Shown here one piece after another: positions 33,402 to 64,000 of a stretch of DNA of 64,000 bases. Numbering within the stretch: position 1 is the stretch's first letter; the number at the start of each line of letters is the position of its first letter. The stretch is taken from the NCBI RefSeq assembly GCF_026914265.1, contig NC_069124.1, positions 69,308,402 through 69,372,401 on the forward strand, written 5' to 3'. The DNA comes from Mya arenaria. Its lineage: Eukaryota; Mollusca; Bivalvia; Myida; Myidae. Under the pieces are notes generated by a model. The model ran no database searches. It saw only the letters and a list, made by a program, of their open reading frames with translations, and was not told where the DNA came from. Both the position numbers and the translations under genes were made by a program.

Positions 33402-36400
33402 TTCTCTATGAAAGACCATACTTCACTCTATTGAAGGGCATACTACAAGCTATGAAATAGTAAACGTCACATGACGAAAGGGCATACTGCACTCTTTGAA
33501 AGAGTTTACTTTATTCTATAAAAGGGCATTCTACACTGTATGAAAGGAGATACTACACTCTATGAAAGAGCATACTGCACTCTACGAAATAACCTTCTTT
33601 GCTTTATGAAAGAGCATACTACACTCTATAAAATAACCTTCTTTTCTTTATGAAAGAGCATACTGCACTCTACGAAATAACCTCCATTTCTTTATTAAAG
33701 AGCATACTACACTCTATAAAATAACCTTCTTTTCTTTATGAAAGAGCATACTGCACGCTACGAAATAACCTCCTTTTCTTTATGAAAGAGCATACTACAC
33801 TCTATGAAATAACCTTCTTTTCTTTATGAAAGAGCATACTGCACTCTATAAAATAGCATACTACACGTTATGAAAGGGCATAAAACACCCAATGAACGAG
33901 CTAACTTAACTCTATAAAAGACCATTGTACACTCTTTGAAAGGAGATACTACTCTCTATGAAAGTTCATACTACATGCCATTAAAGAGCACACTTCACGC
34001 TATCAAAGAGCATACTATACGCCATGAAAGAGCATACTACATGCTATGACAGAGCACACTTCACGCTATGAAAGAGCATACTATACGCCATGAAAGAGCA
34101 TGCTACATGCTATGGCAGAGCATACTAGACACCATGAAAAAGCATACTACATGCTATGACAGAGCATACAAGACACCATGAAAGAACATACTACATGCTA
34201 TGACAGAGCATACTAGACACCATGAAAGAGCATACTACACGCCATGTAAGAGCATAGTACATGCCATGAAAGAGCCTACTAGACACATTGAAAGAGCATA
34301 CTATACGCCATGAAAGAGCATATTACTCGCCATGAAAGAGCCTACTTGACACCATGAAAGAGCATACTATACGCCATGAAAGAGCATATTACTCGCCATG
34401 AAAGAGCCTACTTAACACCATGATAAAGCATACTTCATGCCAATAAAGGACATACTAGACACCATGAAAGAGCATACTACACACCATGAAAGAGCATACT
34501 ATACGCCATGAAAGAGCATACTACATGCCAATAAAGGACATACTAGACACCATGAAAGAGCATACTACACGCCATGAAAGAGCATATTACACGCCATGAG
34601 AGGGCATACTACACGCCATGAAAGAGCATATTACTCGCCATGAAAGAGCATACTACACGCCATGAAAGAGCATATTACACGCCATGAAAGAGCATATTAC
34701 TCGCCATGAAAGAGCAAACTATACGCCATGAAAGAGCATACTACATGCCAATAAAGGGCATACTAGACACCATGAAAGAGCATACTATACGCCATGAAAG
34801 AGCATACTACATGCCAATAAAGGACATACTACACACCATGAAAGAGCATACTATACGCCATGAAAGAGCATACTACATGCCAATAAAGGACATACTAGAC
34901 ACCATGAAAGGGCATACTACACGCCATAAAAGAGCATATTACACACCATGAAAGAACATACTACACGCCATGAAAGAAGAGCATATTACACGCCATGAAA
35001 GAGCATACTACACGCCATGAAAGAGCATACTACATGCCAATAAAGGACATACTAGACACCATGAAAGGGCATACTACACGACATGAAAGAGCATATTACA
35101 CGCCATGAAAGAACATACTACACGCCATGAAAGAAGAGCTTATTACACGCCATGAAAGAGCATACTACACGGCATGAAAGAGCATATTACACACCATGAA
35201 AGAGCATATTACACGCCATGAAAAGGCATACTTCACGCCATGAAAGAGCATACTACACACCATGAAAGAGCATACTACACACCATGAAAGAGCATATTAC
35301 ACGCCAAGAAAGAGCATAGTATACGCCATGAAAGAGCATACTACATGCCAATAAAGGACATACTAGACACCATGAAAGGGCATACTACACGCCATGAAAG
35401 AGCATACTACACGCCATGAAAGAGCATATTACTCGCCTTGAAAGAGCATACTACACGCCATGAAAGAGCATATTACACGCCATGAAAGAGCATATTACTC
35501 GCCATGAAAGAGCATACTACACGCCATGAAAGAGCATATTACACGCCATGAAAGAGCATATTACACTCCATGAAAGAGCATACTACATGCCAATAAAGGA
35601 CATACTAGACACCATGAAAGGGCATATTACTCGCCATGAAAGAGCATATTACACGCCATGAAAGAGCATATTACACGCAATGAAAGAACATACTACATGC
35701 CATGAAAGAGCATATTACACGCCATGAAAGGGCATACTACACGCCATGAAAGAGCATATTATACGCCATGAAAAGGCATACTTCACGCCATGAAAGAGCA
35801 TACTACACACCATTAAAGAGCATACTACACACCATGAAAGAGCATATTCCACGCCATGAAAGAGCATATTATACGCCATGAAAGAGCATACTACATGCCA
35901 ATAAAGGACATACTAGACACCATTAAAGGGCATACTACACGCCATGAAAGAGCATATTACACGCCATGAAAGAGCATATTACACGCCATGAAAGAGCATA
36001 TTACACGCCATGAAAGAGCATACTACACGCCATGAAAGAGCATATTACACGCCATGAAAGAGCATATTACACGCCATGAAAGAGCATACTACACGCCATA
36101 TAAGAGCATATTACACACCATGAAAGAACATACCACACGCCATGAAAGAAGAGCATATTACACGCCATGAAAGAGCATACTACACGCCATGAAAGAGCAT
36201 ACTACATGCCAATAAAGGACATACTAGACACCATGAAAGGGCATACTACACGACATGAAAGAGCATATTACACGCCATGAAAGAACATACTACACGCCAT
36301 GAAAGAAGAGCATATTACACGCCATGAAAGAGCATACTACACGGCATGAAAGAGCATATTACACACCATGAAAGAGCATATTACACGCCATGAAAAGGCA

Positions 36401-39400
36401 TACTTCACGCCATGAAAGAGCATACTACACACCATGAAAGAGCATACTACACACCATGAAAGAGCATATTACACGCCATGAAAGAGCATATTACACTCCA
36501 TGAAAGAGCATACTACATGCCAATAAAGGACATACTAGACACCATGAAAGGGCATATTACTCGCCATGAAAGAGCATATTACACGCCATGAAAGAGCATA
36601 TTACACGCCATGAAAGGGCATACTACACGCCATGAAAGAGCATATTATACGCCATGAAAAGGCATACTTCACGCCATGAAAGAGCATACTACACACCATT
36701 AAAGAGCATACTACACACCATGAAAGAGCATATTCCACGCCATGAAAGAGCATATTATACGCCATGAAAGAGCATACTACATGCCAATAAAGGACATACT
36801 AGACACCATGAAAGGGCATACTACACGCCATGAAAGAGCATATTACACGCCATGAAAGAGCATATTACACGCCATGAAAGAGCATATTACACGCCATGAA
36901 AGAGCATACTACACGCCATGAAAGAGCATATTACACGCCATGAAAGAGCATATTACACGCCATGAAAGAGCATACTACACGCCATGAAAGAGCATATTAC
37001 ACGCCATGAAAGAGCATATTACACGCCATGAAAGAGCATATTACTCGCCTTGAAAGAGCATACTACACGCCATGAAAGAGCATATTACACGCCATGAAAG
37101 AGCATACTACACGCCATGAAAGAGCATACTACACGCCATGAAAGAGCATATTACACGCCATGAAAGAGCATATTACACGCCATGAAAGATCATACTACAC
37201 GCCATGAAAGAGCATATTACACGCCATGAAAGATCATACTACACACCATGAAAGAACATATTACACGCCATGAAAGAGCATATTACACGCCATGAAAGAG
37301 CATATTACACGCCATGAAAAAGCATATTACTCGCCATGAAAGAGCATACTACATGCCAATAAAGGACATACTAGACACCATGAAAGGGCATATTACACGC
37401 CATGAAAGAGCATATTACACGCCATGAAAGAGCATACTACACGCCATGAAAGAGCATATTATACGCCATGAAAGAGCATATTACTCGCCATGAAAGATCA
37501 TACTACACACCATGAAAGAGCATATTACACGCCATGAAAGAGCATATTACACGCCATGAAAGGGCATATTACACGCCATGAAAGAGCATATTACACGTCA
37601 TGAAAGAGCATATTACTCGCCATGAAAGAACATACTTCACGCCATGAAAGAGCATATTACACGCCATGAAAGAGCATACTACACGCCATGAAAGAGCATA
37701 TTACACGCCATGAAAGATCATAGTACACGCCATGAAAGAGCATATTACTCGCCATGAAAGAGCATATTACACGCCATGAAAGAGCATATTCCACGCCATG
37801 AAAGAGCATACTGCACGCCATGAAAGGGCATATTACACGCCATGAAAGAGCATACTACACGCCATGAAAGGGCATATTACACGCCATGAAAGAGCATACT
37901 ACACGCCATGAAAGAGCATATTACACGCCATGAAAGATCATACTACACACCATGAAAGATCATATTACACGCCATGAAAGAGCATATTACACGCCATGAA
38001 AGGGCATATTACACGCCATGAAAGAGCATATTACTCGCCATGAAAGAGCATACTACACGCCATGAAAGAGCATATTACACGCCATGAAAGAGCATACTAC
38101 ATGCCAATAAAGGACATACTAGACACCATGAAAGGGCATACTACACGCCATGAAAGAGCATACTACACGCCATGAAAGAGCATACTACACGCCATGAAAG
38201 AGCATATTACACGCCATGAAAGAGCATATTACTCGCCATGAAAGAGCATACTACACGCCATGAAATAGCATATTACACGCCATGAAAGAGCATACTACAT
38301 GCCAATAAAGGACATACTAGACACCATGAAAGGGCATAATACACACCATGAAAGAGCATACTACACGCCATGAAAGAGCATACTACACGCCATGAAAGAG
38401 CATATTACACGCCATGAAAGAGCATATTACTCGCCATGAAAGAGCATACTACACGCCATGAAAGAGCATATTACACGGCATGAAAGAGCATATTACTCGC
38501 CATGAAAGAGCATACTACACGCCATGAAAGAGCATATTACACGCCATGAAAGAGCATATTACACGCCATGAAATGGCATATTACACGCCATGAAAGAGCA
38601 TATTACTCGCCATGAAAGAGCATATTACACGCCATGAAAGAGCATATTACACGCCAAGAAAGAGCATAGTATACGCCATGAAAGAGCATACTACATGCCA
38701 ATAACGGACATACTAGACACCATGAAAGGGCATACTACACGCCATAAAACGGCATACTTTAAGCCATGAAAGAGCATATTACACGCCATGAAAGAGTATA
38801 TTACACTCCATGAAAGAGCATACTACATGCCAACAAAGGACATACTAGACACCATGAAAGAGCATACTACATGCCAATAAAGGACATACTAGACACCATG
38901 AAAGGGCATATTACACGCCATGAAAGAGCATATTACACGCCATGAAAGAGCATACTACACGCCATGAAAGAGCATATTATACGCCATGAAAAGGCATACT
39001 TCACGCCATGAAAGAGCATAATACACACCATTAAAGAGCATACTTCACGCCATGAAAGAGCATATTAAGAGCCATGAAAGAGCATATTACACGCCACGAA
39101 AGAGCATATTACATGCCATGAAAAGGCATACTTCACGCCATGAAAGAGCATATTACACGCCATGAAAGAGCATATTACACGCCATGAAAGAGCATATTAC
39201 ACGCCATGAAAAGGCATACTTTACGCCATGAAAGAGCATATTACACGCCATGAAAGAGTATATTACACGCCATGAAAGAGCATACTACATGCTTATAAAG
39301 TTCATACTAGACACCATGAAAGAGCATACTACACGCCATGAAAGAGCATATTACACGCCATGAAAGAGCATAGTACACGCCATGAAAGAGCATATTTCTC

Positions 39401-40345
39401 GCCATGAAAGAGCATACTACACGCCATGAAAGAGCATATTACACGCCATGAAAGAGCATATTACACGCCATGAAAGGGCTTACTACACGCCATGAAAAAG
39501 CATATTACTCGCCATGAAAGAGCATACTACACGCCATGAAAGAGCATATTACACGTCATGAAAAAGCATATTACACGCCATGAAAGAGCATATTACACGC
39601 CATGAAAAGGCATACTTCACGCCATGAAAGAGCATATTACACGCCATGAAAGAGCACATTACACGCCATGAAAGAGCATATTACACGCCATGAAAAGGCA
39701 TACTACACGCCATGAAAGAGTATATTACACGCCATGAAAGAGCATACTACATGCCAATAAAGTTCATACTAGACACCATGAAAGGGCATACTACACGCCA
39801 TGAAAGAGCATATTACACGCCATGAAAGAGCATAGTACACGCCATGAAAGAGCATATTACTCGCCATGAAAGAGCATACTACACGCCATGAAAGATCATA
39901 TTACACGCCATGAAAGAGCATATTACACGCCATGAAAGGGCTTACTACACGCCATGAAAAAGCATATTACTCGCCATGAAAGAGCATACTACACGCCATG
40001 AAAGAGCATATTACACGTCATGAAAGAGCATATTACACGCCATGAAAGAGCATATTACGCGCCATGAAAAGGCATACTTCACGCCATGAAAGAGCATATT
40101 ACACGCCATGAAAGAGCATATTACACGCCATGAAAGAGCATATTACACGCCTTGAAAAGGCATACGCCAAGAAAGAGCATATTACACGCCATGAAAGAGT
40201 ATATTACACGCCATGAAAGAGCATATTACACGCCATAAAAAGGCATACGCCAAGAAAGAGCATAATACTCGCTATGAAAGGTCATACTACACTCTATGAA
40301 CTAGCATAATACTTGCCAAGAAAGAGCATACTAGACGTTATGAAA
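33402..40345 (+). repeat. 22-bp minisatellite array, about 6.9 kb
   Basis: The unit is GCCATGAAAGAGCATAYTACAC (22 bp) and there are roughly 310 copies. Variants are patterned: TACTACATGCCAATAAAGGA followed by CATACTAGACACCATGAAAG recurs through the array. Near 33580-33860 the units form 44-bp dimers with CGAAATAACCTYCTTTTC. Longer blocks are duplicated with offsets of about 1172, 930 and 886 bp between 35.0 and 36.8 kb. Open frames here are by-products of the repeat. Confidence 0.95.
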
Positions 40346-40512
40346 GGGCATACTAAATAATGCATTGATGCAAAACATTAATTAGGCCAAAAAAATAATT
40401 GTTTGTTGAGGGTAACCTTCCCAAAATTTCTAGGTAGGGTAGGTCGGGATTTTTAAACTTGAATTTTCGTGATCACAAAATAACTTTCCGTTAAAACGAA
40501 ACCCTTTCTTAA
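40346..40512. other. Spacer after the minisatellite
   Basis: Short non-coding stretch, nothing recognised. Confidence 0.4.
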
Positions 40513-44340: not shown

Positions 44341-44692
44341 AAGAACACAATATTTAGTTAAGGCCTAAAATGGTATCCAATTTCAAAGCATGTATACATG
44401 CAGTTTCTTCTAAAACAATGACATATCAACTGTTTTTATGCACAAATTAACACATTGAAGCGATTATCAACATTTTTTAAAAAAAACGTCGATAAAGCAG
44501 TCAGCTAATTCAAAGCATTAAACATGCCTGTTCTTCTAAAACAAAGATGTATTTACTGTTTTTATGCACAAATTATCACTCTGAAGCGTTTTTCAACTTT
44601 TTTTTTCAAAAAAGTCGATCGAGCACTTCAGCGGCCTAGCGGCGTGAAGTTAGCGGCCTAAAATGGTTTCCTTTTTCAAAGCGTGTTTACAT
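44341..44692 (+). repeat. Satellite unit of about 330 bp, left of the foldback element
   Basis: One unit beginning GGCCTAAAATGGTATCC is built of two related halves of about 155 bp. Each has CAAAGCAT..ACATGC, TTCTTCTAAAACAA and a GTCGAT block. A GGCCTAGCGGC-rich stretch closes the unit. It stops where the foldback element begins, inside the next unit. Confidence 0.8.
44684..44692 (+). repeat. Target-site duplication of the foldback element, left copy
   Basis: TGTTTACAT immediately left of the inverted terminus, identical to 49393-49401. Confidence 0.9.
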
Positions 44693-45875
44693 AGCTGTGT
44701 GAAGTTAGCTAAACATACGACATTGGACATTGGACATTCAAAATCGAATGTTGTGCTGGCACGACATTGGACATTGGACATTCAAAATCGAATGTTGTGC
44801 TGGCACGACATTGGACATTGGACATTCAAAAGTGAAAGTCGTGCTAGCACGACATTGGACATTGGACATTCAAAATCGAATGTTGTGCTGGCACGACATT
44901 GGACATTGGACATTCAAAAGTGAAAGTCGTGCTAGCACGACATTGGACATTGGACATTCAAAATCGAATGTTGTCCTGGCACGACATTGGACATTGGACA
45001 TTCAAAAGTGAAAGTCGTGCTAGCACGACATTGGACATTGGACATTCAAAATCGAATGTTGTGCGGGCACGACATTGGACATTGGACATTCAAAAGTGAA
45101 AGTCGTGCTAGCACGACATTGGACATTGGGCATTCAAAATCGAATGTTGTGCGGGCACGACATTGGACATTGGACATTCAAAAGTGAAAGTCGTGCTAGC
45201 ACGACATTGGACATTGGACCATTCAAAAGTGAATGTCGTGCTAGCACGACATTGGACATTGGACATTCAAAATCGAATGTTGTGCTGGCACGACATTGGA
45301 CATTGGACATTCAAAAGTGAATGTGGTGCTAGCACGACATTGGACATTCAAAATCGAATGTTGTGCTGGCACGACATTGGACATTGGACATTCAAAAACG
45401 ATTGTCGTGCCGGCACGACATTGGACATTGGACATTCATAACCGAATGTTGTGCTGGCACGACATTGGACATTCAAAAGTGAAAGTCGTGCTAGCACGAC
45501 ATTGGACATTGGACATTCAAAATCGAATGTTGTGCTGGCACGACATTGGACATTGGACATTCAAAGGTGAAAGTCGTGCTAGCACGACATTGGACATTGG
45601 ACATTCAAAATCGAATGTTGTGGTGGCGTGACATTGGACATTGGACATTCAAAAGTGAAAGTCGTGCTTGCACGACATTGGACATTCAAAATCGAATGTT
45701 GTGCTGGCACGACATTGGACATTGGACATTCAAAAGTGAAAGTCGTGCTAGCACGACATTGGACATTGGACATTCAAAATCGAATGTTGTGCTGGCACGA
45801 CATTGGACATTGGACATTCAAAATCGAAATAGCACGACATTGGGCATTCAAAATAATATGTCGTGCTGGCTAGTT
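44693..45875 (+). repeat. Left arm of the foldback element, about 26 units of 44 bp
   Basis: Two unit types tend to alternate. Type A is CATTCAAAATCGAATG plus TTGTGCTGGCACGAC; type B is CATTCAAAAGTGAAA plus GTCGTGCTAGCACGAC. Both end in ATTGGACATTGGA. The B core is a perfect 16-bp palindrome. Some units lack one ACATTGG sub-repeat. Confidence 0.95.
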
Positions 45876-47892
45876 GTCTTGGTAATAAATATAAATTTTG
45901 GACCCATGATAGACAGAGACTTCGAATGGTCCTTTAAGATAGATTTGAGCAGTTCACGCGTCCATTAGCTGAATAATATGTGTCCAGTAATGTAGTCGAA
46001 TTGAACTGCTTGTTTTATATTTGAACATTTATTGAGTGCGACATTTATAAAATGTTGCAGATGTTAGCCCCAATAAATTGAAATCCAAATTGTACATATA
46101 GTCACTGTATACATAAAGGCAGTAGATATATCACTAAATAATGATCCTTTACAATTGTAATTGTATAACCTCAATATGAATTATTGTTTGGTGGGACGCA
46201 ATTTTGCAATCGATTGTGATTCAGATTATGTTAATAGTCAAATCGTTCTTTAAATAGTTCTGGATGCAGCAAAGTGAAGGCAATAAAAAAGAGTTCCATA
46301 CGGGTACTTGTTTATCTTTGCCCGTTGGGAAGATAAGAATTTCACGCATGGACAAATGTTTGAATCTACTTTTCTGAGGTGGCAGAAATATATATATCCG
46401 AAATCTTGGACTGGTGATAAGGCTGCAATTCTAATTTGTCCATTCAAATTATTGTGTTAAATAACGACATTCAACTTGGCTTTTATTTTTTAAAATATGA
46501 TTTATAATAACGTATATCTGTCTATAATTCATAGTGACCAAATATTATTTAGGCATCCAATGGAAGTGGTAAATATTAAGAGAAAAAATATAATGAAACG
46601 ACAACCAGTATACAAATAATAATTGTTGGACATCATTTTTACTCATTAATTATCTGTCAGGAGTACCCTTTAAAATAATACCAAAATTATATGGGATCCC
46701 CATGCATCAAAATGTAGCATTATCGCCAATGGTTTATGCATTGACAAGTTTAGCTGTGTGTGTATGTTGCCAAGTCACATCCATGTCCGACAATATTATA
46801 CATTTGAGGTACCTAACACATATTTAACAAAGAAACTTGTATTTGAAAGTCCGCAACATTGTTATTGAGAGTTGTATTAAAACAATCCTTTCGATTGATA
46901 TACATACATATTCCCATGTAAATGCAGACACATTCATTAATGAAATATAATTATTCTAAAGCTCTGTAGATAAACACATACTGAAGTGCACATTTGTTGG
47001 GTTTATATAATTATTTGCGCTTTGTTTCCTTTCAACCCTTTCAACCATTGTCAGTTCTGCCCAAGATGCCATTTCCAATGGCGCTGGTGTCACATTTTAC
47101 ATGTATAAATTGTATATTCTGTAAAACCTATAAGAACTTATGTCGTATGTGATGAAGACGTCATTTTGAATTCTTTAATGTTGATGCGATTGATTATAAA
47201 ACGCTTTGTGTAATTCTGTCGACTTATCAAAAAGGTTTATCGAACACAATTATTTCATATAAACTTTACCAAATGAAGACGACGTAGCATGTTCGACTAA
47301 CTGAGTCGATAAAAAAACAAGTCGACAGGCAGGAATAGGTTACTTTATCGACTCATTGACAATATTTTTTTGTGTTTACGTAAAACCAGATAAAAAAGAT
47401 GTACGGACGATTACATTTATACTTGTAGGAATCATCAATGCATGTCTATATTTTCCATATGTCATTATATACTGTGGATATAATTATCTTCACTTCCTTT
47501 ATAAATGGTACTAGATGTGTAGCAGTGGTGTGTAAACAATTAAGCTTATCAAAAATATGCCATTTTGAAAGCATTATCACTGTTTGTCTACATATAATCC
47601 ACGACCATTCATAAGTATATTCATTTGAATCTTTCTCTGCATATGTGACATCATATATATCTGAATCATGCTTAAGTTTCAAATATTGCGATGGAATCGT
47701 CATGACAGTGCTCTCTTGGTGTTAATGAATTTTATAATGGTTCATTGCTTTGTGATCTCTGACCCTTTTCAAATAATTTCAAGACAATATCTCAAACAAA
47801 CAAAAAATCCGAATAATGCATGCAATCAAAATTAATTTAAAGTCGGTATAAAAAACATTCATTCATAAAACATGTCATACATTGATTTAAAT
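45876..47892. other. Unique core of the foldback element
   Basis: About 2 kb, AT-rich, with open frames below 90 codons and no transposase motif. One visible stem: GAGTCGATAAA near 47304 and TTTATCGACTC near 47344. Confidence 0.7.
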
Positions 47893-49392
47893 GTGCTAAC
47901 TGCTAGCACGACTTTCACTTTTGAATGTCCAATGTCCAATGTCGTGCCAGCACAACATTCGATTTTGAATGTCCAATGTCCAATGTCGTACCAGCACAAC
48001 ATTCGATTTTGAATGTCCAATGTCCAATGTCGTGCTAGCACGACTTTCACTTTTGAATGTCCAATGACCAATGTCGTGCCAGCACAACATTCGATTTTGA
48101 ATGTCCAATGTCCAATGTCGTGCTAGCACGACTTTCACTTTTGAATGTTCAATGTCCAATGTCGTGCCAGCACAACATTCGGTTATGAATGTCCAATGTC
48201 CAATGTCGTGCCGGCACGACAATCGTTTTTGAATGTCCAATGTCCAATGTCATGCCAGCACAACATTCGATTTTGAATGTCCAATGTCCAATGTCGTGCT
48301 AGCACGACTTTCACTTTTGAATGTCCAATGTCCAATGTCGTGCCAGCACAACATTCGATTTTGAATGTCCAATGTTCAATGTCGTGCTAGCACGACTTTC
48401 ACTTTTGAATGTCCAATGTCAAATGTCGTGCCAGCACAACATTCGATTTTGAATGTCCAATGTCCAATGTCGTGCCAGCACAACATTCGATTTTGAATGT
48501 CCAATGTCCAATGTCGTGCTAGCACGACTTTCACTTTTGAATGTCCAATGTCCAATGTCGTGCCAGCACAACATTCGATTTTGAATGTCCAATGTCGTGC
48601 TAGCACGACTTTCACTTTTGAATGTCCAATGTCCAATGTCGTGCCAGCACAACATTCGATTTTGAATGTCCAATGTCCAATGTCGTGCTAGCACGACTTT
48701 CACTTTTGAATGTCCAATGTCCAATGTCGTGCCAGCACAACATTCGATTTTGAATGTCCAATGTCCAATGTCGTGCTAGCACTACTTTCACTTTTGAATG
48801 TCCAATGTCCAATGTCGTGCCAGCACGACATTCACTTTTGAATGTCCAATGTCGTGCCGGCACGACGATCGTTTTTGAATGTCCAATGTCCAATGTCGTG
48901 CCAGCACAACATTCGATTTTGAATGTCCAATGTCCAATGTCGTGCCAGCACGACTTTCCCTTTGAATGTCCAATGTCCAATGTCGTGCCAGCACAACATT
49001 CGATTTTGAATGTCCAATGTCCAATGTCGTGCTAGCACAACATTCGATTTTGAATGTCCAATGTCCAATGTCGTGCCAGCACAACATTCGATTTTGAATG
49101 TCCAATGTCCAATGTCGTGCCAGGACAACATTCGATTTTGAATGTCCAATGTCGTGCTAGAACGACATTCACTTTTGAATGTCCAATGTCGTGCCAGCAC
49201 AACATTCGATTTTGAATGTCCAATGTCCAATGTCATGCTAGCACGACTTTCACTTTTGAATGTCCAATGTCCAATGTCGTGCCAGCACAACAATCGATTT
49301 TGAATGTCCAATGTCCAATGTCGTGCCAGCACAACATTCGATTTTGAATGTCCAATGTCCAATGTCGTATGTTTAGCTAACTTCACACAGCT
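47893..49392 (-). repeat. Right arm of the foldback element, about 34 units of 44 bp
   Basis: The same A and B units as the left arm but in reverse complement, and about 0.3 kb longer. It ends TTAGCTAACTTCACACAGCT. Confidence 0.95.
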
Positions 49393-49401
49393 TGTTTACA
49401 T
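49393..49401 (+). repeat. Target-site duplication of the foldback element, right copy
   Basis: TGTTTACAT immediately right of the inverted terminus, identical to 44684-44692. Confidence 0.9.
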
Positions 49402-50215
49402 GCATTTTCTTCTAAAACAACGACATATTAACTGTTTGAATGCACAAATTAACACTTTAAAGCTATTAGCGATAATCAACATATTTTTTCAAAAAAGTCG
49501 ATTAAGCAGTCAGCTAATTCAAAGCATTAAACATGACTGATCTTCTAAAACAATGATATATTTACTGTTTTTATGCACAAATAATCACCCTGAAGCGTTT
49601 TTCAACTTTTTTTCAAATAAATCGATCGAGCACTTCAGCGGCCTAACGGCGTGAAGTTAGCGGCCTGGCGGCCTCGCGGCCTAGCGGCCTAGCGGTCTTA
49701 AATGGTTTCCTATTTCAAAGCATGTATACATGCATTTTCTTCTAAAACAATGACATATTAACTGTTTGAATGCACAAATTAACACTTTGAAGCTATAAGC
49801 GATAATCAACATATTTTTTTTTAAAAAGTCGATTAAGCAGTCAGCTATTTCAGAGCATTAAACATGCTCTTCTAAAACAATGATATATTTACTGTTTTTA
49901 TGCCCAAATAATAACTCTGAAGCGTTTTTCAACTTTTTTCAAAAAAGTCGATCGAACACTTCAGCGGCCTAGCGGCCTAATGGCGTGAAGTTAGCAGCCT
50001 AGCGGCCTAGCGGCCTAAAATGGTATCCTATTTCAAAGCATGTATACATGCATTTTCTTCTAAAACAATGACATATTAACTGTTTTTATGCACAAATTAA
50101 CACATTGAAACGATTATCAACATTTTTGTTTTCAAAAACGTCGATAAAGCAGTCAGCTATTTCAAAGCATTAAACATGCCGGTTCTTCTGAAACAATGAT
50201 GTATTTACTGTTAAA
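49402..50215 (+). repeat. Satellite units of about 330 bp, right of the foldback element
   Basis: About two and a half further units in direct orientation with the left one, starting with the rest of the interrupted unit. The GGCCTAGCGGC block varies in copy number (extended at 49640-49700). Intact versions of the insertion site (TGTATACAT in CAAAGCATGTATACATGC) occur at 49723-49731 and 50041-50049, and at 44391-44399 on the left. Confidence 0.85.
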
Positions 50216-55800: not shown

Positions 55801-58800
55801 CGACACCGTGGACCCATGGGACCAGCTGGACACCTGCTTCACCCACTTCCTGTTCCTGGACGTCGGCAAAGAGAAGGAGCGACAGAAAGTCCGCGCGAGT
55901 ATAGATAGCTGTATAGCCACAGGACGATTCGGGAAATCGGAGGAGACCAGTAATGCATTGTATTTAAAATATTGTTTTTATAAAAAATGCGAAAAATGGC
56001 ATTTTTGGTATGAACGAACGCGCAGGCCCCATATAATGTTTAAACATAACTAAGTAGTATTTTCTCACTTCTGTTCATTACTCAGATGTTCCTGTGGTTC
56101 TCACAGTGTTCGGGGCACAGGAGCGCTCAAAGGCCGCTATCAGACTGGCTGCCAAAAACGGCCACTCCGTTCTCGTTATAGACAGCCAACACGATGGGTA
56201 TAAATATATTCAACTGTCTTGTTTCAACTATCGACCATGTCTGCTTTGTTTTTCTACAAAAGAGTGATTATTCAGAATAGAAAATAGCCAAGTTTTCTTT
56301 TAATTTACCTTGTATTAGTTATTATATTTATAACTGTTACAGTATTCATACACCGAAATAGTTCATACAATACTTGTGGCTTCGAAATAGGTATGAAGTT
56401 AGATCTTATGTAGGGCGGAGCGATAGAAGGGAGCCATTAAGATTCTACCTCATATGTTCTCAATTTCTGTATTTTTCAGCAGGCGGGGAATCAAATTATG
56501 ACGTCATAAGCTGTAAACCTACAAAGTTTTCGATTAAGCGTGGTATTAAAGGCAAGCTGGTCAGCCTTTTTATTGGCTGGAAATGTAGGTTATATAATCT
56601 TATTTATAATAAGAACAATCATGATAGTCTTGCTCATAGGCAGGTATTACGTACAGACGATGGTAAGCCGTGTCCGGTGAAAGTCTTCAGCGGCGGCACG
56701 GCGGAAGTCTTCGCCCAGACCCTCATGAACGCTGTCATTTCCGGTCAGTTTTGCATTTTGACTTCGGTAGAACCCATGTCTTATGATATAATTGCTTAAA
56801 ATAATTTGAGCATTAAAGGCAGCCGAGCGCAAATGCTTCTATAGACCCAATACAATACACATTCGTGAAACACTTGCTGTTCTGTAAATATTATTAAATA
56901 ATTCATGCTAATGTTGAAAGAAATGAGACTCACCGTGAACAGTTTTATGTCCAGTTCTATTTTTTGAATGGAAATACTAAACTGTATGCACTGCCACTGA
57001 TACCAAATATATAAAAAAACATCATTTTTATCATAACCCCCTTTTCCTAACTTAATGAGTCGGTGAAATTTGCTTCATTCAGATTTAATTTATCTTTGTG
57101 ATAGTTATACCGTTTCTTTCTCATTAGATTTTTATTATAATATATCTTTAATGAACTTAGGTGCCTTTAAAGGAAGATGATTCATTCATGTATTCGTTTG
57201 AGTAAATTTCCACTGAAAACGGTTTTCTTCTAGCAAACGTGGCGGTGTCGGAGTGCCTGCGGCTGGCCATCGTGTGGAAGATGCCGGAACATAGCATCCT
57301 CGCGCTCCTCGAAAAGGACCGGAAGTGGCAAGTTGGTAATCTTTATGCACTCAACCACCTTTAAACGGTTTTGCTGTATTTACGCGATGCTTTAAATGGT
57401 AGAGTCTCGGACTTTTAAACGCAGTTAAAATTTACAACTACAACCACGGCGAGCTCCATGTACGCTTCGTTTGAAAAGAATATTGAACTACATATATGCG
57501 ATTTTGTTTTATGAAGGTAACTTGAAGACAGTATGTTCATAATGCTTAAATCTGATGTCACAGATTGCGATGTTATTATCCAGGATGACGAGCAGACTTA
57601 CCGGAACAAGATATTTGCGCTCGCACTGGAGCGAGACATAGAAGGGACGGCGCGGCTGCTGCTGGAGCACGGGGTACACGTGGCCGACTTTTGCACAGAG
57701 TTCCTACACGTGCTCTTTCAGGAGGTGGGCTTTATTTGTGATGCATGAACTATAGCATTTACAAAAGTGTACATAAGTGCTACACAATCTGAGTGAGTGG
57801 ACACTTGATGCAATGACGTTCCTACTGTCAGTGTTTACATAATATTTACTAGTAGTAAGACATGTACACACTTTTGGCATATTTCTTCTGATAAATGTTT
57901 GAATTTTTAATCGATTTCAGACTTGCCTAAAAAAGAATGAAACGGTGAAAGATATCAGAGACGTTGAAAGACTCATCTATCAGCGTGCCCGCGTGAAACT
58001 GAAACTGACTGTCACGGATGAGTCGGGAAAAGGTATCAACAGTTTCTTGCGAAGCTTTCGGTGGACTCAAGACTAAACTTAATGATTTAAAATAGACGAT
58101 GCATATTACATTGGTGAAAATAAGAACCAACACAATGGAAAGTAATATAAACCCTTTTACATTTGAAGCATCTATGCCTTTAACCAAACTTTTTGATAAG
58201 CAAATATTTAACGTGGTTGTATATTCCTCTATGACGGGCATGTCACATGAATTTTCTTCTATTCCAGCGGTTGTCCCGGGCGATCAGACGGCATACCTGG
58301 GACTGTTTGTGTGGGCTCTGTTCGCACATATGCACGAAGTAGCCACGTTCTTTTGGGGACAGTTAAATGTATTAACGTCAATGAATTAGCAAGAACTCAA
58401 GCAAAACTAACACAATTATACATTACGTTCTCAGAATTTCGTAGATGACCCACAATAATAGATTGCATCAAATATGCGGAGTTCTTTTCCCTAAAAAATA
58501 AATCTTCTAACGGTCATAATCTAAACTTCAGAACAAGATGGCGGCTGCCCTTTTGGGACACCAGTGCCTGCAGTGGCTGAAGCATCACTCGGAGAGCGAA
58601 GAGGGACGAGAGGTCGTAAGGGACCTCATGGCGTAAATATATCACAAAACTGATTAGAATGATCCATTGAAATAGCATTACATCGGCAGTTTTCAGCATA
58701 CTGCTTTAAAACTTATATTCTGCTACGCTTCTCTATTAATAAATTATGTCCTCATGTTTTAAAGATGTATACACAACAACGGGACTAGCTGCTAAAATAC

Positions 58801-61800
58801 ATTATAAAATTGTGTATGTGTTATCTTTAAGCCCGTTAAGGAACGACTGTAAGAAAGGCCCTTTTCTGGTTTGACATAGGAAGCCGAGTAATTCGATAAA
58901 ATTCGTATAAAACTCGTTTAATTGATCATACATCGTTGTTGTAAAGTTTCTTGATGATTTTCTTTAAACAAGACAAGAAAATTGAAAAGAAAGAAATAAA
59001 AGTGTGTCGTTCCTTTTACATCAATGGTCTTTCTTCTTCATAACTGATATCCCTGAACCATGTCTTTTTGTGGTGATTTAACAGTATATGTATTATATGA
59101 AATATACAGCATATCATGCATGCCGTTATATTTTACCTATAGTTCATGACACAGGTATTAGGTGCGTAGTTATGCCAAGCCCCCGCTATAAAGAATAAAG
59201 GTAAAATAACCTTAGACAGTTTTTTTTAATAATGTAATATATAAATATATCACCCATCATTGCCAATATTTGTTTTAAAAACAACAACAGTTCTTCCTTT
59301 ATCAAACGTTACTGCTAATAGTTATACATACAGTCAGATGGGGCAGGCACGTACGAGTATGACATAACCACACACCCAATGCCCGTGCTATGTGGCAATA
59401 ATCAAGATATGATTACGCAGCAATATGCACCAAACCAACTGTTTGCCTTAAACGTGAGTTGAATGCAATCTGCAGAGAATATACAGCGCGGGCACTAAAA
59501 ATACTGGACGGTTGTTACGGGGAGAAGAAGGGGAATGCGAAAAAGCTGCTGGTTCGGCGGCGACGGGAGCTCGGTGGAACTTCCTGCATCCTGCTGGCTA
59601 AAAACAATCTCGTCTTCATCCAGCACCCCGCCTGTCAGGCTGTCCTCAATGATATATGGATAGCACCACTTGCCGCCGAGAACGAGACAAACTCAACATG
59701 GAGGGTAGGGTAGTTGTTTGTCTCTAGCCAGTCCTAAGTGTTGGCTTGCTTATCATGTGAATCAAATCATCCAGTAGAAAAATCACACTTTAAATAATAA
59801 TGGATTGTTTTGTTTTTTTTCAGATTGTCTTAAGTGTGTTCATGCCTTTCTTGTCTGGGTTTCTTCTGGTTATGAACAGGTTAGGCATTCATTAAGAGTT
59901 ATTACCATTTATATATACATTTTGTAAGACATACATCAAGAATAATCATGAATATACCTACTTGTTGTTACACAAACAATAAGAATAATCATGAATATAC
60001 CTACATGTTGTTAGACATTCATTAAGAATAATCATGAATACACCTACATGTTGTTAGACATTCATTCAGAATAATCATGAATATACCTGCATGTTGTTAG
60101 ACATTCATTCAGAATAATCATGAATATAACTGCATGTTGTTAGACATACATTAAGAATAATCATGAATATAACTGCATGTTGTTAGACATACATTAAGAA
60201 TAATCATGAAAATACCTACATGTTGTTACACATTCATTAAGAATAATCATGAATATAGCTACATGTTGATAGACATACAATAAGAATAATCATGAATATA
60301 CCTGCATGTTGTTAGACATTCATTCAGAATAATCATGAATATACCTGCATGTTGTTAGACATACATTAAGAATAATCATGAATATAACTGCATGTTGTTA
60401 GACATACATTAAGAATAATCATGAATATAACTGCATGTTGTTAGACATTCATTAAGAATAATCATGAATATAACTGCATGTTGTTAGACATACATCAAGA
60501 ATAATCATGAATATAATTGCATGTTGTTAGACATACATCAAGAATAATCATGAATATACCTACATGTTGTTAGACATTCTCATTAAGAATAATCATGAAT
60601 ACACCTACATGTTGTTAGACATTCATTAAGAATAATCATGAATATAGCTACATGTTGTTAGACATACAATAAGAATAATCATGAATATACCTGCATGTTG
60701 TTAGACATTCATTCAGAATAATCATGAATATACCTACATGTTGTTAGACATACATTCAGAATAATCATGGATATACCTACATGTTGTTAGACATACATTA
60801 AGAATAATCATGAATATAGCTACATGTTGTTAGACATACAATAAGAATAATCATGAATATACCTACATGTTGTTAGACATTCATTCAGAATAATCATGAA
60901 TATAGCTACATGTTGTTAGACATACATTAAGAATAATCATGGATATACCTACATGTTGTTAGACATACATTAAGAATAATCATGAATATAGCTACATGTT
61001 GTTAGACATACAATAAGAATAATCATGAATATACCTGCATGTTGTTAGACATTCATTAAGAATAATCATGAATATACCTACATGTTGTTAGACATACAAT
61101 AAGAATTATCATGAATATACCTACATGTTGTTAGACATTCATTCAGAATAATCATGAATATACCTACATGTTGTTAGACATACCTCAAGAGTAATCATGG
61201 ATATACCTACATGCTGTAATAGGACATACATTAGGAACTGTTATCGTTACGGTATAATGTGCATAATTAAGTTTTACGCTATTAAATTGATAAACATCAA
61301 GTTTACAGAACATTGTGTTACGTTGTAACCATGGCATTTAGTCACCATGATTAGCCATGCTTGTCATCTGTGCGTTTCAGGGAGTGTGCAGGGACACGGG
61401 GGGACGACGAGGGAGCATCCTTTTGTAATACTGCAACTAACTGTTGTGGCTGCTTCAGGAGATTTTACAGATTCTTTACCAGTCCGATTGTTAAGTTTAC
61501 ATATACAAAGGTACGGAGAATTTTTGTTTAATTTTCAAATTGCATATATGTATTCAATAGGTCGGTCATTAATGTGTATGACAAAGCGTTGTTTCACCGA
61601 ACTTTTACAGGACAACATCGTTATATTTCATAGAAATGCAACATCCGTCATGCATTGGTCTAAGTAATGCAAACATTTCAGCAAAGAGGTCCTCAGCAAT
61701 GTGTATAGTTTCGGTTTCCAGCTATAGCAGTTTGCTGGCAGACTCTTTGCCCTGGGCTTATAACTGTACTGAAGTTAAGTTTATTGAGAATTGTTATTTT

Positions 61801-63756
61801 CTTGAAGTAATTATCGCTTCATTATTTTCAGTTGCTATATCTGGTGTTCCTAAGTCTATTTGCACACGGCTTGATCACGGAAAGCAAATACGTGTTTATA
61901 GTGGTTGCCTGCTGGGTCGCCACACTGCTTATTGAGGAAGTTTTTCAGGTACGAAGTCACGTGTATTGTTTTATACATAAGTCCTTTTGCACTAGCGAAT
62001 CCAGGGAGGGGGATGCCCCCCTAAACACGCATTGGTTTACTTTTTATTTCAATACAGGAGAAAAAGTAATATATTACGCAAAAAATGCATCATTTTGGAC
62101 TAGAAATGGTTAAAAAAACTGCAAATACTTTAAACCAAATAAATTTCGGCTCTGAAGGAAGGCAAAAAGGTTACACCCTTAAGTTACAGCCCTACTTATG
62201 TCGAATCCTGTAACCGCCCATTTATTGTGCTGCTAAGCAAGGAACATCTTTATTACAAATTCGACAAGGTATGCATATGTGTCCATGTATCTGTCGTTTA
62301 TATGTATGTTTAAATGTAACTTTATGTGATATTAGTTGTGCACGAAGCGGCTACAGTATTTTTACGACACGTGGAACTGGTTTGACCTGCTGGCGATTTT
62401 CCTGTTCGCAATCGGTACCGCGCTCAAGTACAATTCGCGGTCCCGAGAGGCAGGACGCATCGTCCTCGCCGTCGACTTTATTGTGTTCTCACTAAGGATA
62501 CTGCAGGCGTTCACAGGGCTGAGGAACATTGGGCCTATGATTATCATGATCAAGAAAATGGTAGGACGATTGTACAATCTGCTTACAATTTCATGTCATT
62601 TGGTATTCATACTGAAATAATATTATGCGGAACAAATTAAACCAAACAAAACATGTTAGGATTTCGGGCCTGACTTAAAGCACCTTGATAAACACAATAA
62701 ATTGAAAATAACAACACTCGCGAAAAGGTGGATTATCATGTTGATTATCTTTTCTTGAATTTTCTGGAAGGACGAAAACTGAATAAAAAGAAAAAGTTAA
62801 GATATGCGTATTCTCCTCATGTGTTTTTCAGATGATCGACCTAGGTTATTTTCTGATCATTCTGCTGGTGGTGGTCGTGTCGTACGCCATCGCTACCCAG
62901 TCCATCATGTTCCCCGAGTCGGAGCCCAGTATGGACACGGCTTTCAGGACTCTCCGGCAGCCATACTGGAGCATCTTCGGAGAACTCAACCTCGAGGAGA
63001 TCGAAGGTAAACGCTTTAAGTTTGGGCGTGGCAGGCGTTACTGTTGGTTATTTAACTTTCTTCATTATTCCACTGACTATATTATATTAAAAAGTACTTC
63101 TCTTTCAGTGTTTTGATGATATTTTAGTACATTGTATTGAGTATTTTTTATCAAAGACCAGGAAGTCGTTATTTTTTGGGTTTATTCCTATAAGGGTTGA
63201 ACCTTGAAACTATGTTTAATACAAGCAGATGTTTCATGCCAGATGATGACTCGTGTAGCCACAACGAGACCGAGTGGCGGTCAGGGACGGTGGCCCGTTG
63301 CCCGGATCATGTTAGCAAGTACGCGGTGCCCATCCTATTGGGAGTCTACATGCTCATCGTACAGGTTCTCCTCCTCAATCTGCTCATCGCCATGTTCAGG
63401 TAGGACAAAGTTGGGTTTGAGTGCAATGCATTTAATATACAAATTCACATCATCATCAATATTTTCGACAGCGCCACCATCATCATCATCATCAAGGTAT
63501 AACAGGTACTTCTATTGTTTCCATCCCCAGCTACACGATCAGCGTGGTTCAGGAAGAGGCGGACAAACACTGGTGCTACCTGCGCTTCAAACTCATTCGG
63601 CGTTACCATGACCGATCCTTCCTGGTGCCGCCCTTCATCGTCCTCTACCACGTGTACCAGGTCGCTTTCACCGTCTACCGCAGCATAGGTCGCTGTGCCG
63701 GCTGTATGGAGGAAGAAGCCAGTGACGCATTCTGTAAACACTGTAGCTGTATTTGA
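52895..63756 (+). CDS. TRPM-family cation channel, 18 exons recognised, N-terminus missing
   Basis: Exons: 52895-53066, 53379-53539, 55691-55949, 56086-56197, 56644-56743, 57234-57331, 57584-57724, 57921-58032, 58268-58368, 58532-58612, 59459-59704, 59824-59879, 61381-61510, 61832-61948, 62336-62560, 62832-63006, 63195-63399, 63531-63756. Splices are GT..AG and phases agree except between exons 4 and 5. About 905 residues. The first exons match the TRPM homology region (LLISVTG.., then TTGAWVVADAHCGAMEVVGD) and the middle ones its ankyrin-like part (RLLLEHGVHVADFC). The channel part has a pre-S1 hydrophobic helix, S1-S6, the pore PYWSIFGELNLEEIEG, S6 ending LLLNLLIAMFS, and the TRP helix HWCYLRFKLIRRYHDR. 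The pore resembles the TRPM2-like group. It should form a tetrameric cation channel in the plasma membrane. The stop at 63754-63756 leaves no kinase or NUDT9-like domain; further exons may lie outside the window. Confidence 0.9.
53540..55690 (+). other. TRPM intron 2, carrying an interspersed repeat
   Basis: It runs from a weak donor (AAAT|GTACAT) to the acceptor ATACCAG. Most of it is the Helentron/pearl-like copy at 53671-54991. Confidence 0.6.
53671..54991 (+). mobile_element. Helentron/pearl-like element in a TRPM intron
   Basis: It starts CTCGACTTCTCGAAGAATAA and continues with GGCGTCTGCGTCGGCGTC. It ends GTATAGTCGAACGCGCTG and GCTCTTG, the same ends as the copy at 32627-33401. The core is different. 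It has at least three units of about 140 bp (54300-54800) built on GACATATTG..ACCAAACTTGG and TCAAGGTCACT. No coding capacity. Confidence 0.6.
58613..59458 (+). other. TRPM intron 10
   Basis: AT-rich intron. The acceptor chosen (CGTGAG at 59458) keeps phase 0 and joins EEGRE to LNAICREYTARAL, matching the TRPM pattern. An alternative CTGCAG acceptor a few bases later would break the frame. Confidence 0.55.
59880..61225 (+). repeat. 43-bp minisatellite in a TRPM intron, starting at the splice donor
   Basis: Units read GTTAGACATTCATTAAGAAT then AATCATGAATATACCTACAT (43 bp with the final GTT), about 31 copies with small variants (CATACATTAAG, CATTCATTCAG, ATAGCTACAT). The first unit begins at the exon-12 donor itself (GTTAGGCATTCATTAAGAG). 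Confidence 0.92.
62832..63399 (+). other. TRPM S5-pore-S6 exons
   Basis: Exon 62832-63006 encodes S5 (YFLIILLVVVVSYAIA) and the pore helix/filter RQPYWSIFGELNLEEIE. Exon 63195-63399 encodes the outer pore turret with a Cys pair (CFMPDDDSC) and glycosylation-type NTS and NET sites, then S6. The filter region is acidic (E at FGEL, then EE and E), suggesting cation selectivity with divalent permeability; this is inferred from family comparison only. Confidence 0.8.
63447..63496. repeat. CAT microsatellite in the last TRPM intron
   Basis: Two (ATC)n runs separated by about 20 bp, just before the CCATCCCCAG acceptor. Confidence 0.8.
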
Positions 63757-64000
63757 ACATATTTGAGATCGACCTTTTTAAAGATGCTTGTACTTGCTTC
63801 CCTTACATCGCTATGGGTTATTATATGTATATGGGTTTCTTCCACGAGACAGTTTTTTCCTATGTGACCAGTGTTGTAATAGATAATCAAAAAGCGAATA
63901 GCCCCGCCTGGTGATATGTTAACAAGTTGGACCGATTAATGCCATTTTTTGTTTATAAATAATGCTAAAAATGTAGTCCTTTGATTCCTCTCCCTCCCAT
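63757..64000. other. Sequence after the TRPM stop codon
   Basis: Possible 3' UTR or intron. No clear polyadenylation signal is seen before the window ends. GTAAAC at 63734 could serve as a donor just before the stop. Confidence 0.35.

Follow-up and report, generated by a model that had tools for sequence, protein, structure and literature searches.

The window analyzed here, a 64,000-bp stretch of the genome of the bivalve Mya arenaria (C3:69308402-69372401; contigs of the assembly are labeled C1, C2, C3 and so on), contains a 4,700-bp element at positions 44693..49392 that is very probably a non-autonomous foldback-type cut-and-paste DNA transposon. The family to which the element belongs is young and has hundreds of termini across the genome, and the element's ends, inverted arms, target-site duplications and dispersed copies support the original prediction, made from the letters of the window alone, that it is a foldback transposon. 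Some copies of the family also carry an exon that probably encodes part of a domain resembling, on the basis of a structural model, the ubiquitin-specific proteases (USPs).

Structure of the element and its target site

Both ends of the element, read inward, consist of a non-repeated 24-bp terminus, AGCTGTGTGAAGTTAGCTAAACAT, followed by tandem 44-bp units. The left terminus (44693..44716, + strand) leads into a left arm of ~26 units (about 44717..45854, + strand), some of which are 37 bp long and which often alternate between two types, A and B. The right arm (47901..49368, − strand) is inverted relative to the left one, comprises ~34 of the 44-bp units and ends in the right terminus (49369..49392, − strand), an exact inversion of the left one. 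Between the arms lies a non-coding core of ~2 kb (about 45880-47895), and the 9-mer TGTTTACAT flanks the element on the left (44684..44692) and, in the same letters, on the right (49393..49401). Arms, core, ends and flanking 9-mers had all been placed correctly by the original prediction. The outer 68 bp had also been described as identical inverted repeats; the identity stands, but the perfect terminal inverted repeat (TIR) is longer, at 99 bp, with the first mismatch between the element and its own reverse complement falling at base 100.

The insertion splits a unit of a 318-bp host satellite, which continues on the left at 44382..44692 and on the right at about 49393..50212, where two unoccupied target sites are found (49711-49745 and 50031-50063). 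Once joined, the flanks give back one host satellite unit: 120 bp of joined flanks align by BLAST with two neighboring units at 88% (120 columns) and 91% (102 columns). The alignment originally proposed between the restored site and the unoccupied units is a good match, but its two differences "in the motif" have to be corrected, as the 35 bp at 49711-49745 contain three differences, one within the 9-mer (TGTTTACAT versus TGTATACAT) and two outside it. Within the satellite itself, TAGCGGCC-type repeats form a short run.

Copies elsewhere in the genome

Further copies of the terminus, which the original prediction had anticipated, are abundant: a whole-genome pattern count with the 24-bp terminus and the next 10 bp, at up to two mismatches, gave 754 matches (384 forward and 370 reverse), against 0 and 0 for the reversed-pattern control. 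The best 40 of 948 candidates from the first terminus search all match the window identically over 68 bases; 32 stretches covering these 40 matches were taken and, with the window, make up 33 records. Two convergent termini are present in 26 of the 33 records and one end only in the other seven. An exact 9-bp duplication, which had been predicted for the other copies as well, flanks 21 of the 26 two-ended copies, the window copy among them. No exact matches were found at other duplication lengths between 6 and 13, and left and right 9-mers mispaired from different copies never match (0/650). Because the duplications are exact in so many copies and mispaired 9-mers do not match, a chance origin of the window duplication is excluded. 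The 21 exact 9-mers are 75% A+T without a clear consensus, and the targets differ in sequence among these copies, except for L035 and L037, which represent one site, by duplication; TIRs and target-site duplications occur together at dispersed sites. The first 100 termini in the list, which are all exact matches on C1-C3, include 27 convergent pairs spanning 916-5,935 bp.

The foldback structure, with long inverted tandem-repeat arms around a core, is found in the window and in the 25 further two-ended copies. The arms are oppositely oriented in all 25, and in 23 they surround a piece related to the window core, the other two (L016 and L031) having almost no core; arms can also be very short, with 3 units on the right of L040 and 4 on the left of L038. 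Given these oppositely oriented arms elsewhere in the genome, it is unlikely that the arms are an assembly artefact, the alternative named in the original prediction. The tandem arrays of the arms and the one-armed pieces L027, L028 and L036 would also suit a dispersed satellite whose arrays were interrupted by insertion or inversion of unrelated DNA, the unit never having been transposed as a whole, but the exact termini, the exact 9-bp duplications, the empty site in the window and the 754 termini make this explanation highly improbable. A Helitron or Helentron was considered too but does not fit the TIRs and 9-bp duplications, since elements of that kind are not known to have target duplications or TIRs.

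Two sets of observations among the copies weigh against the reading of the family as a cut-and-paste transposon. First, some duplications are inexact, with one mismatch in L016 and L018, two in L012 and L030 and three in L038, while L041, a 27th two-ended copy found later, has only an offset 7-mer in common between its flanks. Second, of the seven one-ended records one adjoins an assembly gap, and the others are truncated, rearranged or perhaps extend beyond the fetched stretch. L024 enters an assembly gap; L025 and L026 are near-identical and contain a short arm alone, L025 holding a 100-base gap; L027 and L028 are near-identical pieces with one arm; the arm of L036 is rearranged; and in L039 the arm is followed further in by a diverged (~81%) core segment, and the fetched stretch contains no second end. 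Just inside the arm of L025 and L026, a frame adjoining the truncated arm resembles by eye a piece of a retroelement polyprotein, and a frame beside L027 appears by eye to be similar to G-protein-coupled receptors.

Internal deletions of the core

The core falls into two parts. The right part (46216..47895, + strand; core block 337-2016) has no long open frame and is the most widely shared portion of the family: among the other 25 two-ended copies, 20 contain it entire or as fragments, with pieces 92.9-98.6% identical. The left part (45880..46218, + strand; core block 1-342) is common to the window, L011, L012, L021 and L040 and, partly and at 90%, to L038. Comparison with L011, L018 and L012 places an internal-deletion junction with a 3-bp microhomology, GTG, at 46216..46218. 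In L012 the two blocks are separated by 1.24 kb, whereas in the window they abut at a GTG found on both sides, and for this reason the window copy is best read, from the aligned sequences, as a non-autonomous internal-deletion derivative. Internal deletions in the right core part differ between copies. Across 19 alignable cores the mean pairwise difference is 1.9%, and the window lies 0.42% off the majority sequence.

Turnover of the arms

The number of units per arm ranges from 3 to 59. Among the units parsed, 1,241 are 44 bp and 146 are 37 bp long, the latter mostly without one GGACATT, and types A and B often alternate across the family. Compared with shuffled sequences, the B-A dimer folds better (z −3.3) and single 44-bp units do not (z −1.1 and −0.6). 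L035 (C1:45728200-45736700) and L037 (C1:34404200-34412700) lie 11 Mb apart in opposite orientation, and their duplications are identical as reverse complements, with flank identities of 98.4% (499 bp) and 99.7% (380 bp). Either a single insertion was duplicated together with the DNA around it, or the assembly placed two haplotypes at separate sites. Their arms contain 33 and 49 units in L035 and 14 and 38 in L037, in an order that agrees by eye but with blocks missing; since these counts differ within one insertion, the arms change after insertion. Exon matches (see below) near C1:45.55 and 34.62 Mb may share the arrangement of this pair, as a large inverted duplication or a misplaced haplotype. 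In the right arm of L029, a block of ~10 units seemingly occurs twice in succession, by eye a higher-order duplication within the arm.

Rare unit variants tend weakly to be common to both arms of one element (0.070 versus 0.026; 35/2000 permutations reach this value, with L016 dropped and the comparison of L035 with L037 left out of the between-element mean), and in the window element no rare variant is common to both arms. The motif CGACATT of the arm units is only suggested as a putative binding site. Its case is weakened by the 44-bp unit as a whole, in which 39 of 44 columns are conserved at ≥92% (11 of them fixed by the picking of units; L016 omitted), so that conservation does not single the motif out, and by its imperfect inverted partner, AATGTTG in type A and AAAGTCG in type B.

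Two further tandem arrays lie elsewhere in the window. Positions 33404-40355 hold a 7-kb array with a base unit of 22 bp and higher-order periods of 44 and 66 bp (ATGAAAGAGCATACTACACGCC), and positions 59916-61237 hold a 43-bp array of ~31 copies with 91% matches, for which no inverted partner was reported within 57000-64000.

A probable ubiquitin-specific-protease-like exon and a second foldback family

A segment absent from the window copy bears, in other copies, an exon with ...HYCAVLQSETFGNVWYDGLVG..., which in L012 is preceded by an acceptor-like TTTCAG. The exon has 51 matches in the genome (61/61 candidates scored), 37 of which contain a stop, and the fullest relatives of the L012 segment, among the best 40 of 747 candidates, are at C6:80319948 and C3:74811005. 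L041 and L043, among the best protein matches of the exon, contain an arm, exon and core of the same kind, and their long frames pass through the arm repeats. At L045 (C1:45545100-45549600), each of two inverted arms, at least 1.2 kb long and 98% identical, has its own open exon for the USP-like domain.

No Pfam family matched the exon at an expect value (E) of up to 1 or 10, and its sequence matches in the PDB, all at E 0.13 or worse, were disregarded. A domain profile run against a large protein collection yielded 10 proteins, including the query P0001, a homolog of the exon rather than a copy in this genome. The AlphaFold model of P0001, built with the alignment from this profile run (mean predicted local distance difference test score, pLDDT, 81.9; predicted template modeling score, pTM, 0.63) resembles USPs in the PDB, including USP15, USP28, USPL1 and USP54. 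The best match has E 7e-4 and 2 of 334 matches reach E≤0.001; the similarity is modest, with a template modeling score normalized by the query of ~0.4 over ~95 columns. The best 50 of the 334 matches are all USPs or, judged largely by their titles, complexes with a USP-type subunit. Because of the resemblance of this model to USPs, the exon probably encodes the C-terminal half of a USP-like domain.

An exon match of 43% identity, at C8:9823459, lies within a second element (C8 about 9820924-9824737, 3,814 bp), the one member of its family that was read. This element has arms of 69-bp units in opposite orientation and ends TGTGTGAAGTTGGCTCAGCC; its flanks have TCGAAAACTAT in common, which is compatible with a 9-bp duplication in a register chosen by analogy with the first family, and its exon is open and homologous to that of the first family. 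The second-family terminus is found 142 times (73 + 69) at up to three mismatches, with 0 and 0 in the control. Some of its termini form pairs spanning just 228 bp (C12:31285340-31285567) and 537 bp (C3:73553298-73553834), by position minimal copies resembling miniature inverted-repeat transposable elements (MITEs).

The terminal cores of the two families differ at one of 15 bases (TGTGTGAAGTTGGCT versus TGTGTGAAGTTAGCT), whereas their arm repeats are different, and from these sequences this suggests that the arms, not the termini, evolve fast. The 44-bp and 69-bp units nevertheless have 12 7-mers in common on both strands, among them CGACATT and ACATTCGAT, against a shuffle mean of 1.1 (4/1000 shuffles reach 12), in a single comparison of two consensus units whose words were inspected before the test. 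We tentatively offer the picture, unlikely as it may be to hold in full, of an animal foldback lineage in which the terminal core TGTGTGAAGTTRGCT is kept, arms are replaced wholesale while retaining CGACATT in each unit, and autonomous members would encode a USP-like protein beside or fused to the transposase.

As the exon occurs in two families, we infer that a protease-like protein would be part of the equipment of a partner element and the exon a remnant of that element's own gene set. Telling against this, the exon could be captured sequence, a fragment of a host or foreign gene carried in the manner of a Pack-MULE, for which we see somewhat less than an even chance. Capture would account for the last exon alone being seen, for the stops in its matches and for its absence from many copies, the window included; deubiquitinase (DUB) domains are, moreover, known from Helitrons (PMC9741609). 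Capture fits less well with homologous exons in two families whose arm repeats differ and whose terminal cores are near-identical, or with a profile that yields only the 10 proteins and no Pfam family. An Ovarian Tumour Gene motif is given for a cnidarian Mutator-like element (MULE; PMC6446971), and no report of a USP-like domain in a foldback element was found in the available text of the open-licence PMC literature, a weak negative.

Search for a transposase and proposed mechanism

The original prediction had also foreseen a longer copy encoding a Mutator/FB-type transposase, and here it was not borne out: none was found among the copies and MULE matches examined. Outside its arms, the window element lacks a long frame, and no transposase-encoding copy was found among the 26 two-ended copies (three longest frames each), the one-ended records and the exon relatives. 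The longest non-arm frames among those listed reach 127 amino acids (L033), and L012 has one of 133. Reading frames of the one-ended records L039, L027, L026 and L036 revealed no autonomous copy; arm and core matches in all seven one-ended records, and mutual comparison of six, showed truncated or rearranged arms. The MULE domain (PF10551) has 54 matches in the genome among the best 150 of 153 candidates, the nearest of them at least 230 kb from 200 listed termini (100 of the 754, all on C1-C3, and 100 of the 142); from the exon matches they are separated by 144 kb or more. The missing transposase and these distances count against the proposed class of the element, the latter as a limited negative, since 200 of 896 termini were checked; with no detected MULE domain near the listed termini, Mutator membership is argued from the 9-bp duplication, and the wider FB/Mutator label from structure and duplication length. 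In viral contigs, 36 pattern stretches contained no relative of the element.

On balance, the enzyme appears to be Mutator/FB-like. Possibly, though this is doubtful, the foldback-like architecture arose within a different TIR superfamily, as that of Galileo did within P, or within hAT or an unknown DDE group. Such an origin would be in keeping with termini that have no linked transposase and with the large distance between the detected MULE-domain copies and every listed terminus. Target duplications in the P and hAT superfamilies, however, are 7-8 bp long. Here all 21 exact cases are 9 bp, within the 8-11 bp, mostly 9, of Mutator/FB elements, and 9 bp is also reported from Tm1, Rehavkus and many MULEs (PMC3169594, PMC6446971), even if foldback structures do arise in different superfamilies (PMC4079207).

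For the Mutator/FB-like reading, we propose that a DDE-type transposase supplied in trans by a partner element, most likely of Mutator/FB type, would pair the two 24-bp termini, and perhaps the CGACATT motifs of the arm units too, excise the element and reinsert it at cuts staggered by 9 bp. That the termini are recognized is suggested by their conservation against variable arms and cores, a contrast that is partly a selection effect because the copies were found by that terminus. Internal sequence would be lost from copies, probably via interrupted gap repair at short homologies, as the GTG junction and the series of deletions suggest, and arm length would change by slippage or unequal exchange.

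Comparison with known elements

The closest parallels are foldback elements of other animals. FB/FB-NOF of Drosophila has long inverted arms of short tandem repeats that vary in length, a 9-bp duplication and copies that are non-coding for the most part, though some contain a coding insert, and foldback elements cause rearrangements in flies. The clam element matches FB in arm structure, variable arm length, duplication length and the prevalence of non-coding copies, but differs in repeat unit and terminus and occurs in another phylum, and no NOF-like transposase was found in the clam copies. Among bivalves, tandem-repeat MITEs of Donax trunculus and Helentrons of Crassostrea gigas are reportedly mobile elements that carry tandem repeats; judged by titles, they are set apart from the clam element by its pair of inverted arrays, its sharply defined inverted ends and its 9-bp duplications.

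Tm1 of root-knot nematodes has composite inverted repeats of variable length with an internal tandem motif, many non-autonomous forms, and duplications of 8-10 bp, mostly 9, in 45 of 53 elements (PMC3169594). The composite variable repeats, the tandem motif and the predominance of 9-bp duplications are common to Tm1 and the clam element; Tm1, however, includes a copy with a Phantom-type FLYWCH/MULE transposase and has asymmetric 7-bp ends, whereas the two ends of the window copy are identical and the search here yielded no transposase copy. Rehavkus likewise combines a 9-bp duplication, a long TIR and a minisatellite, but it encodes a PHD-finger transposase and its minisatellite lies before the 3' TIR, whereas the clam element has minisatellite arms on both sides and no transposase was seen (PMC6446971). 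Tetris/DAIBAM of Drosophila virilis is also a non-autonomous foldback element with tandem repeats in its TIRs and no autonomous copy found; it differs in its 220-bp unit, its 8-10 bp duplications and its three structurally complete copies, compared with 26 two-ended copies and 754 termini here (PMC4079207). By analogy, the clam element would work like FB, Tm1 and Tetris. No description of a foldback transposon in a mollusc was found in the available text of the open-licence PMC literature, which is not proof of its absence in print.

The element adds a young, high-copy family to a known kind of transposon, the foldback elements, together with an unusual coding remnant. It is this USP-like exon that constitutes the novel lead, as it suggests that these transposons may have used an enzyme of the ubiquitin pathway; if the USP-like reading is true, a deubiquitinase would have been used by a cut-and-paste transposon.

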